DNA from: Candidatus Brocadiia bacterium
Lineage (GTDB): Bacteria > Planctomycetota > PUPC01
Reading direction: 5' to 3'
NCBI GenBank assembly: GCA_030605345.1
Contig: JAUWIN010000017.1
Span: 1 to 33,222 of the forward strand
DNA: 33,222 bases
The translations under genes and the position numbers were made by a program. The notes beneath the pieces are model-generated. The model ran no database searches. It saw only the letters and a list, made by a program, of their open reading frames with translations, and was not told where the DNA came from. Each line of letters begins with the position of its first letter. The stretch's first letter is position 1. Of the stretch, positions 9,684-33,222 are shown in pieces.

Positions 9684-10331
9684 TCAGTCCCGGCTGGCCC
9701 ACACCATCCCGCGCTTCGTTATCTCCATCAGCTCCGGCACGCCGAACTCCTCCGCCGCGTGCCCCAGCGAGCTATAGAATACCCGGCCCTCGCCATACAT
9801 CCGCTTCCACACGACAGGCATCACGCAGCCCTCAATCCAGGGATACGGATCGGCCCCGACCGTGGTCGTGGCCAGGACCTCGTTGGACGGGTCAACGTGC
9901 ATGTAATACTGTTCCGAGTGCATTTTGAAATCCGAAATGCCGGCCACGATTGGGTCGTCCGGCTTGGTAATGTTCACCGTGTAGTCCACCATGCCGCCCG
10001 GATGAGCCACCCACTGGCCGCCGACCATGAACTGGTATTCGGTCTCCTGGCGGAACGAATCTGCCATGCCGCCGTGCCAGCCGGCGATTCCGACGCCGCT
10101 CTTCACCGCGCCCAGCAGCCCCTGGGACTGGTCGCCGGTTATCTCGCCCATCGTCCACAACGGCACGACCAGGCTCAGCGACCTCATCTTATCCTCGTCG
10201 AGGTAGGCGTCGAGCGTATCAGAGATTTCGACCTCGAACCCCGCGGCTTCCAGTTGTGGCGCCACCACGTCGACGCACTGCTTCGGCTCGTGGCCTTCCC
10301 ATCCGCCCCAGACAAACAACGCAGATTTCAT
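9684..10331 (-). CDS. ThuA-like domain protein
   Basis: This 215-residue protein of the ThuA/trehalose-utilisation family has a class I glutamine-amidotransferase-like fold. Landmarks are [11 protein letters not shown] at the N-terminus, [15 protein letters not shown] in the middle, AHPGGMVDY, and the late [14 protein letters not shown] that marks this family. The ATG at 10331 was chosen because GGAGAAAAGG lies just upstream; the longer frame from 10370 would translate the SD itself. It is probably co-transcribed with the Gfo/Idh gene that follows it. ThuA of rhizobia is linked to disaccharide oxidation (3-keto sugars), so a joint role in sugar redox metabolism is plausible but inferred. Confidence 0.88.
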
Positions 10332-10378
10332 ATCCTTTTCTCCTTTTCCCGGCTCCCTCCTGGCTTCCAAACCACGGC

Positions 10379-10407
10379 ACGTTACTCAACCCTTCTCAGT
10401 TTGTCAA
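10379..10407 (-). promoter_or_regulatory. Possible promoter of the ThuA operon (minus strand)
   Basis: On the minus strand a perfect -35 TTGACA (10402-10407) is followed after 17 bp by TAACGT (10379-10384), a poor -10. The position, about 50 bp before the ATG, is right. Confidence 0.45.
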
Positions 10408-10496
10408 GTCGCGCGGACGCGGTACGTAAAGAGGTGTTCATGCCCGCTTTTCACAGGACATCGCGGATATGTGTGTAAGTGAGGAACTTATCTCAT

Positions 10497-10531
10497 GGAA
10501 TCTCGCTGCCGGACCTCGGTGCCCGGCACCG
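10497..10531. repeat. REP-like palindromic element, left copy
   Basis: GGAATCTCG (10497-10505) is followed after 9 nt by CTCGGTGCCCGGCACCG (10515-10531), whose core CGGTGCC-C-GGCACCG is a perfect 7-bp palindrome. A matching unit lies on the far side of the TcmP pair at 12398-12429, in the same orientation. Confidence 0.65.
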
Positions 10532-10583
10532 GAAACTTCGAGCTTGAACGGGAGGATGCTCTGACCTATCATCATCTTGACGT

Positions 10584-10642
10584 CGTTGGTGATGTTGAGA
10601 AAAATTTTTCATTTCCCATATTACCCGGCCACATCACCAACG
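10584..10642. repeat. Perfect 12-bp inverted repeat with nested palindrome
   Basis: CGTTGGTGATGT (10584-10595) and ACATCACCAACG (10631-10642) are exact reverse complements, 35 bp apart. The spacer contains the 12-bp palindrome GAAAAATTTTTC (10599-10610). ATTTTTT follows the right arm after a few bases, so as RNA it could act as a terminator shielding the cassette. As DNA it could be an operator or recombination site. Confidence 0.7.
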
Positions 10643-10698
10643 CGGCGATTTTTTACACGCCACAAAACCATAATAAACATATTGCGGCCCGTTGGGGC

Positions 10699-10726
10699 TT
10701 GACGCAGCGCGCCACAATCATACCAT
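10699..10726 (+). promoter_or_regulatory. Promoter of the TcmP/three-Cys pair
   Basis: TTGACG (10699-10704) and TACCAT (10721-10726) are 16 bp apart. Transcription would begin only about 10 nt before the GTG at 10743, with the SD GGGAGG (10732-10737) in between. Confidence 0.55.
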
Positions 10727-10742
10727 AGAGTGGGAGGTAAGC

Positions 10743-11579
10743 GTGGGACGGGTCAAACTCGACGAAGTGGGTCGTTGGACGGAGATCAAGCTCCAGATCT
10801 TACGGGAGTATTCGAAGGCTTATTCCAAGATTCTCAGCAAGCAGCGAAGCATCCAGCACTACGCCTACATCGACGGTTTCGCTGGCGCGGGGAGCCATAT
10901 TTCTAAAGCAAGCGGGCAAGAGATCGACGGGAGCCCCGCTATCGCGCTTCGGCACCAGTACACGCACTACCATTTCATAGACGTTGATGGGCAGCGCGCG
11001 AATCGTCTGCGACAACTCGCAAGCGGTCGTTCCGATGTGACGGTGTACGAAGGCGACTGCAATAAGGTTCTTCTTAATCAGGTGCTTCCTGAGTGCCGCT
11101 ACGAAGATTACAGGCGAGCTTTGTGCCTGCTTGATCCATACGGTCTTAGCCCGAAATGGGAAGTGGTTGAGAGGATCGGGAAGATGAGGAGCGTCGAGAT
11201 ATTCCTCAATTTCATGATCATGGACGCGAATATGAACGTGTTGTGGACCGACCCCAGTCGCGTTGCCGACAGCCAGCGGGCCCGCATGAACGCATTTTGG
11301 GGCGACGAGACGTGGAAGGATGCAGCATATAGCACTCGCTTAGGCCTGTTTGGCGATATGCAGGAGAAGAGGACAAACGATGCGGTCGTTGCCGCCTATC
11401 GTCAGCGTCTCAGGGAGGTGGCGGGTTTCGAGTATGTCCCGGAGCCACTGCCGATGAAGAACCGGAGAGGAGCAGTCGTGTACTATCTGTTCTTCGCATC
11501 TCACAACGCGACTGGCGACAAGATCGCCCGAAAGGTGTTCAATAATTATAGGAACCGAGTACCAGGCAATGGGAACTAA
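10743..11579 (+). CDS. tcmP: TcmP-like three-Cys-motif partner protein
   Basis: This 278-residue protein resembles TcmP, defined by pairing with a three-Cys-motif protein, as it does here. The sequence has Rossmann methyltransferase-like landmarks: HYAYIDGFAGAGSH (like motif I, near residue 40), HFIDVDGQRANRLRQ (like the acidic end of beta-2), and CLLDPYGLSPKW (in the place of a DPPY-type motif IV). A nucleic-acid methyltransferase-like role is therefore possible but unproven. The GTG start was chosen because GGGAGG precedes it. The 3' end overlaps the next gene by 11 nt, indicating translational coupling. The gene is less GC-rich than its neighbours (about 52% in a sampled 60 nt, against 68% in the HPS-RraA gene) and lies between REP-like repeats, suggesting horizontal transfer. 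Confidence 0.8.
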   Translation: MGRVKLDEVGRWTEIKLQILREYSKAYSKILSKQRSIQHYAYIDGFAGAGSHISKASGQEIDGSPAIALRHQYTHYHFIDVDGQRANRLRQLASGRSDVTVYEGDCNKVLLNQVLPECRYEDYRRALCLLDPYGLSPKWEVVERIGKMRSVEIFLNFMIMDANMNVLWTDPSRVADSQRARMNAFWGDETWKDAAYSTRLGLFGDMQEKRTNDAVVAAYRQRLREVAGFEYVPEPLPMKNRRGAVVYYLFFASHNATGDKIARKVFNNYRNRVPGNGN

Positions 11580-12288
11580 ATCAAGAATCGAGTGGACAGA
11601 GTCCACTTGGAATCCGGTAACGGGATGCACCAAGATTAGCCCCGGCTGCAAGCACTGCTATGCAGAACGCATGGCGAAGAGGCTTCACGCCATGGGGCAA
11701 CCAAATTACGCGAATGGGTTTTCACTCACCGTGCATCCTCACGTACTGGAAGCCCCGCTGTCGTGGAAGACTCCACAGGTCATCTTCGTGAATTCGATGA
11801 GCGACCTTTTCCACAACCACGTGCCCCTGGGATTCATCCGCCAGGTGTTTGACGTCATGAATCGAGCCCACTGGCATCAGTTCCAGATACTGACCAAGCG
11901 ATCAGGACGGCTGCTTCAGCTGAGCTCCTGCGTGTCATGGGCCGATAACATCTGGATGGGGGTGTCCGTCGAGACGCACCGATACAAACACCGTATTGAC
12001 CACCTGCGGCAGACCAGCGCGGCTGTTAGATTTATCTCGCTGGAACCGTTGCTCGGCGCGTTGCCTGGTCTTGATCTGTCAGGCATAGATTGGGTCATCG
12101 TTGGCGGCGAGTCGGGACCATGCGCTCGCCCAATGAAAGAGGAGTGGGTTCTCGATATCCGGGACCAGTGCGCCGATCAGGGTATGCCATTCTTCTTCAA
12201 GCAATGGGGTGGCACAAACAAGAAGAAGGCTGGTAGACTTCTCGAGGGGCGAACGTGGGACGAGATGCCAGCCGGAGCCGTTGCCTAG
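11569..12288 (+). CDS. Three-Cys-motif protein, Gp37/Gp68 (DUF5131) family
   Basis: This 239-residue protein has the near-N-terminal motif C-x6-C-x2-C (C20, C27, C30) in the context [20 protein letters not shown], the hallmark of the phage Gp37/Gp68 family. The three cysteines probably bind an iron-sulfur cluster as in radical SAM enzymes, and segments such as FVNSMSDLFH, ILTKRSGRL, WMGVSVE and FISLEPLLG fit a TIM-barrel. The C-terminal part has WVIVGGESGPCARPM and FFFKQWGG, also typical. Its start lies inside the end of the TcmP gene, so the two are produced together. The biochemical role is not established. Context in phages and mobile islands suggests nucleic-acid modification or defence, which is inference. 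Confidence 0.9.
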   Translation: MGTKSRIEWTESTWNPVTGCTKISPGCKHCYAERMAKRLHAMGQPNYANGFSLTVHPHVLEAPLSWKTPQVIFVNSMSDLFHNHVPLGFIRQVFDVMNRAHWHQFQILTKRSGRLLQLSSCVSWADNIWMGVSVETHRYKHRIDHLRQTSAAVRFISLEPLLGALPGLDLSGIDWVIVGGESGPCARPMKEEWVLDIRDQCADQGMPFFFKQWGGTNKKKAGRLLEGRTWDEMPAGAVA

Positions 12289-12397: not shown

Positions 12398-12429
12398 GGA
12401 ATCTCGGAATCTCGGTGCCTGGCACCGAG
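12398..12429. repeat. REP-like palindromic element, right copy
   Basis: GGAATCTCG occurs twice in overlap (12398-12406 and 12406-12414) and leads into CTCGGTGCC-T-GGCACCGAG (12411-12429), a perfect palindrome with 9-bp arms. Its first 17 bases differ from the left copy at one position, the central base. Confidence 0.7.
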
Positions 12430-12477
12430 CGGGGGTATAAGCGATGGAGCGATAGTGAGTTGCGGCGTCGCGATTAC

Positions 12478-12521
12478 TTTCGGACAGTAATTCCACGCTC
12501 TTTCGGACAGTAATTGCACGC
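12478..12521. repeat. Tandem 21-bp repeat, possible IS end remnant
   Basis: TTTCGGACAGTAATTCCACGC (12478-12498, shown here in prose as TTTCGGACAG then TAATTCCACGC) recurs at 12501-12521 with one change (C to G) and a 2-nt spacer. Multiple short terminal repeats of this kind occur at the ends of IS21-type elements, but no transposase is present here, so the origin is inferred. Confidence 0.55.

Positions 12522-32468: not shown

Positions 32469-33222
<754 letters not shown>

Follow-up and report, generated by a model that had tools for sequence, protein, structure and literature searches.

The perfect 12-bp inverted repeat at 10584-10595 and 10631-10642 of the window (the whole 33,222-nt stretch of Candidatus Brocadiia DNA analysed here) is very probably the hairpin of a transposase leader and marks the left end of a decayed, minus-strand IS1380-like insertion sequence, as judged by sequence comparison. 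We observed dispersed copies of the surrounding element, a common layout of hairpin, Shine-Dalgarno and start codon, and, in two Chloroflexota genomes, IS1380-like reading frames that directly follow this leader. The sequence-only reading had found the repeat not to be explained by any gene, and this was right; the window genes give no explanation. It had also proposed that the repeat could act as an insulator or terminator, an operator, or a replication or recombination structure for the tcmP cassette. These roles are unsupported as its origin, and the repeat looks like the 5' leader of a minus-strand transposase gene. An unexplained palindrome would thereby become an identified fossil.

A dispersed element around the inverted repeat

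The arms (CGTTGGTGATGT and ACATCACCAACG) are complementary at 12/12 positions and enclose a 35-nt spacer, within which a 12-nt palindrome, GAAAAATTTTTC, occupies 10599-10610. This geometry agrees with the sequence-only reading, as does the distance of 57 bp from the second arm to the tcmP promoter, whose -35-like TTGACG begins at 10699. The repeat by itself is not significant: 16/100 dinucleotide shuffles contained one or more perfect 12-bp inverted repeats whose spacer measured 3-60 nt, within chance for a 33-kb window. It is raised above chance by homologous copies elsewhere. The A/T palindrome of the spacer did not retain its palindromic form in the other copies (by eye). We assigned the following features to the element and its flank:

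10541-10687, minus strand: putative IS1380-like left-end relic, from homology to six own-genome copies and a leader layout as in other genomes
10674-10687, minus strand: putative left terminal region of the insertion sequence, 5'-CCGCAATATGTTTA, with the proposed terminus at 10687, from comparison of ends; the similarity of the two G002 copies stops at the corresponding position
10631-10642, minus strand: upstream arm of the leader hairpin, a perfect complement of 10584-10595
10596-10630, minus strand: hairpin loop with a -10-like TAATAT (10618-10623, minus strand), a candidate internal promoter, by direct reading
10584-10595, minus strand: downstream arm, running into the mutated transposase Shine-Dalgarno, from comparison of copies
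10537-10572, minus strand: putative transposase start remnant, MIGQSILPFKLE, from its translation and N-terminal resemblance
10649-10654, plus strand: TTTTTT tract beyond the hairpin, terminator-like on the outward strand, by direct reading
10699-10726, plus strand: TTGACG-16-TACCAT, resembling a promoter for tcmP, at 11 nt beyond the proposed terminus
10743-11579, plus strand: tcmP, a neighbour outside the element (TIGR04474, 198.3 bits; cut-off 53)

The genome-wide search for copies that had been suggested along with the first reading was informative. The repeat sits in a dispersed element that spans ~145 bp (10541-10687). The MAG has six more copies, of which five reach E<=2e-4 and one is weak. 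BLAST of the own genome with the window as query returned a second copy, C73 (73% identity), and BLAST with C73 retrieved C42, C32, C56 and C93 (E 2.8e-22 to 0.0037). C93 is the weak copy; its right half was clearer by BLAST (E 0.0037), and the covariance model gave E 0.5. C130 was retrieved by the covariance model alone (E 2e-4). This model was built from C95 (the window copy), C73, C42, C32 and one copy from G002, a same-family Planctomycetota MAG. On the own genome it returned its four input copies at E<=1e-21, by construction, and C56 and C130 at ~1e-4; the five non-window copies at E<=2e-4 thus include C73, C42 and C32, which are themselves in the model. Weak own-genome matches (L009-L013) were set aside as chance (by eye). 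The own-genome copies have unrelated genes as neighbours: one is a GMP synthase fragment (Pfam), and by eye the others are aminotransferase-like, a sensor-kinase/O-antigen-ligase-like pair, glycosyltransferase-like and a TetR-like gene.

The G002 genome carries two copies, identical across 116 bp and both cut by contig ends; their divergence begins at the outer terminus. No match at E<=1 with the covariance model was observed in G001, from the genus of G002. Among 392 genomes drawn from the phylum, only G000 (the own genome) and G002 gave matches at E<=0.001 under stricter search filters, and matches in G021 and G053 were dropped (by eye). The leader and start codon were also present in three genomes of other phyla, at loci L033, L042 and L084. 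A pattern scan of genome contigs gave 16 matches, three with the hairpin (G002, the L033 Chloroflexi MAG and the L042 Hydrogenedentota MAG); the other 13 were dropped for want of a complementary arm ~50-62 nt upstream. The R1 covariance model scored the distant members modestly (L033, E 0.0034; L042, E 0.0039). A two-arm pattern found two carriers among 393 genomes of the L033 class, namely the L033 genome itself and G1094 (L084), and the arm pattern was present in 1/68 Hydrogenedentota genomes, the L042 genome. Contigs end inside the element or the transposase frame at G002 C117/C96, L033 and L042, as is to be expected when multi-copy elements are assembled from short reads.

Mobile DNA collections gave no confirmed relative. 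In viral contigs, the first pattern had no match, the second had five matches, all without the arm (by eye), and the transposase search gave seven pattern stretches, none confirmed. None of 19 plasmid records reached 80% query coverage (the best 10 of the 19 cover 26%), and the plasmid protein search returned one distant match (28%).

We also noted other features of the window. At 10743-12288, tcmP (TIGR04474) overlaps a DUF5131 gene (PF07505, E 4.3e-104). A REP-like palindrome, CTCGGTGCCYGGCACCG, flanks this pair at 10515-10531 and 12411-12427; its exact matches among 84 loci were only three, all covering the same window stretch. A tandem 22-nt repeat, CTTTCGGACAGTAATTSCACGC, occurs in two copies at 12477-12521, and a 16S rRNA gene at 32469-33222 is cut by the contig end.

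The transposase frame and its leader

At L033, the opposite strand reads ...CACCAACGAGGTGAAGTAATGATAACACAA..., the Shine-Dalgarno and start of a frame. Behind the leader and an ATGATA start, a 260-aa stretch matches the NCBIfam model for IS1380 transposases, NF033539 (E 1.1e-21; 76.9 bits, below the equivalog cut-off of 180 bits) and Pfam PF13701 (E 1.2e-6; 27.6 bits, below the cut-off of 34.7). L084 has the same leader, and the frame behind it, interrupted further on, shares 55% identity with that of L033 over 247 aa. This frame passes the PF13701 gathering score (77.4 bits; cut-off 34.7) and matches NF033539 (E 5e-38; 130.8 bits, also below 180 bits). L042 has the same leader and the start ATGATACAGCAG at a contig edge. 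As to membership of the DDE_Tnp_1_4 / IS1380-type transposases, L084 stands above the Pfam cut-off and L033 below it, and the window offers ~12 codons. Next to the Chloroflexi element lies an FRG-domain gene (L033 4105-4953, minus strand; PF08867, E 3.5e-22), faced by a promoter-like TTGACA-17-TATAGT (by eye).

The window retains the remnant peptide from 10572 down to 10537 on the minus strand, and the palindrome CTCGGTGCCCGGCACCG at 10515-10531 lies just past these ~12 remaining codons. The remnant peptide resembles the N-termini MRRQTILPFEIE (L065, a short broken frame) and MRQGVLPFQY (L084); other own copies start MIGRTILPFE (C73), VIGQNIVPFK (C42) and MIEQKRLEFK (C32). Over codons 1-10, four own copies showed no third-position excess of changes (15/17/19 differences; C130 left out for a frame shift). 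A PF13701 or L033-like transposase was not found in G000, G001 or G002, so the transposase link rests on relatives in other phyla and on the ~12 codons. The L033 transposase query matched 8/400 Chloroflexota genomes, its own included, and the PF13701 search matched 6/11 genomes examined; by eye, the PF13701 matches in G393 seem to belong to a different group of transposases. Leaders were readable in five of the seven non-L033 Chloroflexota genomes with matches (G490 and G723 were left out), and the hairpin was not seen in these five (by eye).

Most other copies have CCAACGAGGTGAA before the start codon; the window has CCAACGACGTCAA and C32 has CCAACGAGCTGAA. The Shine-Dalgarno of the window is changed from GAGGTGAA to GACGTCAA. 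Because this site is mutated and ~12 codons are left, the window copy is most likely inert today, a dead, one-ended relic.

The layout suggests how a living element would have worked. In the relatives from the two Chloroflexota genomes, the 3' arm of the hairpin carries the Shine-Dalgarno of the transposase frame. Transcripts initiated outside the element would contain both arms and hide this site, and transposase would be made only from transcripts initiated inside the loop. The hairpin thus probably kept transposase from being translated off read-through mRNA. The loop TAATAT may be the internal promoter, as a candidate without a clear -35; the loops of C42, C130 and C32 hold a -10-like TATAAT or CATAAT.

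We folded eight leaders (C95, C73, C42, C32, C130, one G002 copy, L033 and L042; L084 was left out). For 8/8 leaders, the predictions gave the Shine-Dalgarno a lower accessibility in read-through RNA than in loop-started transcripts. The mean unpaired probability of the Shine-Dalgarno region was 0.16-0.45 with both arms and 0.32-0.60 in loop-started RNA, for a loop start that we chose to place 30 nt before the arm. The minimum-energy fold of C32 lacked the stem. In the consensus fold of four copies, the covariation term was unfavourable (+0.75), with both-side changes in 2/20 pairs, and the outer stem is beyond covariation testing because it is invariant in distant members. Covariation supports neither side, and G-U pairs favour neither strand (counted by eye).

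The proposed terminus and an adjacent promoter box

On the transposase strand, 8/9 ends read CCNN[AG]AT, with C93 as the misfit; the register was set by eye on the same ends, so this tally is a description and not an independent test. The left repeat (IRL) of ISEcp1 is given as CCTAGATTCTACGT (PMC7864471). Matches to it, out of 14, were 11 for G002, 8 for L033, 7 each for L084 and L042, 6 each for C73 and C56, 5 for C32 and 4 for the window; the 11/14 of the G002 end was equalled in 0.0002 of shuffles. No inverted copy of the window end was found within 10371-10760 or 10000-11200. Because this search gave no right terminal repeat, we filed the window element as a one-ended relic and not as an IS copy. 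IS1380 target duplications are reported to be 4-5 bp (PMC12116815); no second end, and with it no such duplication, was identified in any copy.

Other classes of element were compared as well. No Rfam match was relevant and none was above the gathering score. Integron attC sites have the arm order R'' RYYYAAC ... R' GTTRRRY. On direct reading, either strand here has GTT first and AAC second (GTT...AAC), opposite to that order, which does not fit an attC site.

Just outside the element we observed an outward TTGAC[AG] box in 6/10 flanks (200 nt each). It lies at 14-18 nt when measured from our anchors, which puts it 11-14 nt beyond the proposed terminus, and the motif occurs nowhere else in the flanks. 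The box was present at the window copy (C95), C73, C32, C56, G002a (L017) and L033, and absent at C93, G002b, L042 and L084; C42 and C130 were left out of the count, their outer ends being unrecognisable. The pattern has a rough probability of 8e-14 from window motif density and ~6e-8 from clustering alone, figures to be read with four of six carriers coming from one genome and with the pattern having been noticed after the fact. The box probably belongs to the host gene and not to the element, because the spacer between terminus and box is unconserved (by eye) and G002b lacks the box. A speculative and less likely reading is that an IS1380-like element of environmental phyla inserts in fixed register by sigma-70 promoters, so that its left end points at the -35 box of a host gene from a distance of 11-14 nt; the relics would reflect promoter-guided integration or selection for such insertions. 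If the fixed -35 distance were confirmed on more insertions, it would speak for promoter-guided insertion.

Alternative explanations and known systems

Our initial reading of the element was an outward, plus-strand small RNA gene, composed of a promoter (TTGAAC-17-TATCAT, 10544-10572), the hairpin and a T-tract terminator. We now consider this unlikely. The promoter-like match is present, its hexamer pair and 17-nt spacing recur in several own copies (by eye), and the T-rich tract beyond the hairpin recurs in several copies and in L033, L042 and G002 (by eye), other phyla included. The single-sequence fold on the plus strand also lies slightly further from shuffles (z -2.78) than that on the minus strand (z -2.29). 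However, the start ATGATA read on the other strand gives TATCAT, and P-F-K codons underlie TTGAAC, so coding accounts for both hexamers, and L033 has no -35 at such spacing (by eye). Where 0.5 promoter-like sites were expected, the promoter scan gave three within the element plus the one of tcmP, so single sites of this kind mean little, and Rfam held no relevant match. The Chloroflexi locus L033 overturned this reading. Within the insertion sequence, an outward small RNA would be an antisense regulator of the transposase and could act beside the leader hairpin. This version is compatible with the insertion-sequence reading and has a partial precedent in ISPpu9, where the -10 of an antisense RNA overlaps the transposase RBS, though that RNA raises translation (PMC8450116); we give it the same low standing.

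A terminator or operator serving the tcmP/DUF5131 cassette would fit the outward T tract and the 57 bp that separate the repeat from the tcmP promoter-like site, but the element lies at seven places in the genome beside unrelated genes, and ThuA, its neighbour on the far side in the window, is divergent, which together make this role very improbable. The T-rich tract past the hairpin may cause incidental plus-strand termination; tcmP is a mere neighbour, and nothing shows its regulation by the element. A MITE, an internally deleted insertion sequence with both terminal repeats, would account for the similar length of several copies and for three-copy homology that ends 30-38 nt past the start codon. 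An imperfect inverted pair (15 nt, 73%) does lie at 10538-10552 and 10688-10702, but its right arm is beyond the proposed terminus, other inverted pairs in the same repeat searches match about as well, and the terminus itself lacks an inverted copy in 10371-10760. We regard a MITE as improbable.

The insertion-sequence leader is best compared with the IS1380 family, of which ISEcp1/ISEc9 is the best-known member. The proposed terminus CCNNRAT resembles the ISEcp1 IRL (PMC7864471), and in L084 and L033 the leader is immediately followed by an IS1380-like transposase frame, whereas the window copy has no transposase body, right end or demonstrable target duplication. We found no report in the open-access literature of a leader hairpin in the IS1380 family or of IS1380 relics in Planctomycetota. 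The signature CCTCGTTGG...CCAACGAGGTGAA, followed by a start codon, would make IS1380-like elements recognisable in three phyla. ISEcp1 is known for mobilising resistance genes, and the leader would add candidate Shine-Dalgarno hiding to its family.

A block on read-through mRNA is known from IS10, IS30 and IS200, whose families and sequences are presumably unrelated to the window element. Antisense control in these elements works alike, in that transposase translation is limited at the leader (PMC8450116). ISPpu9 of Pseudomonas putida differs in its 244-nt leader, two sRNAs, experimental proof and an antisense RNA that raises translation (PMC8450116), against sequence analysis alone here. Its likeness to the window element is in the arrangement: the ISPpu9 transposase RBS lies within a 5'-leader structure, and the antisense -10 overlaps that RBS (PMC8450116).
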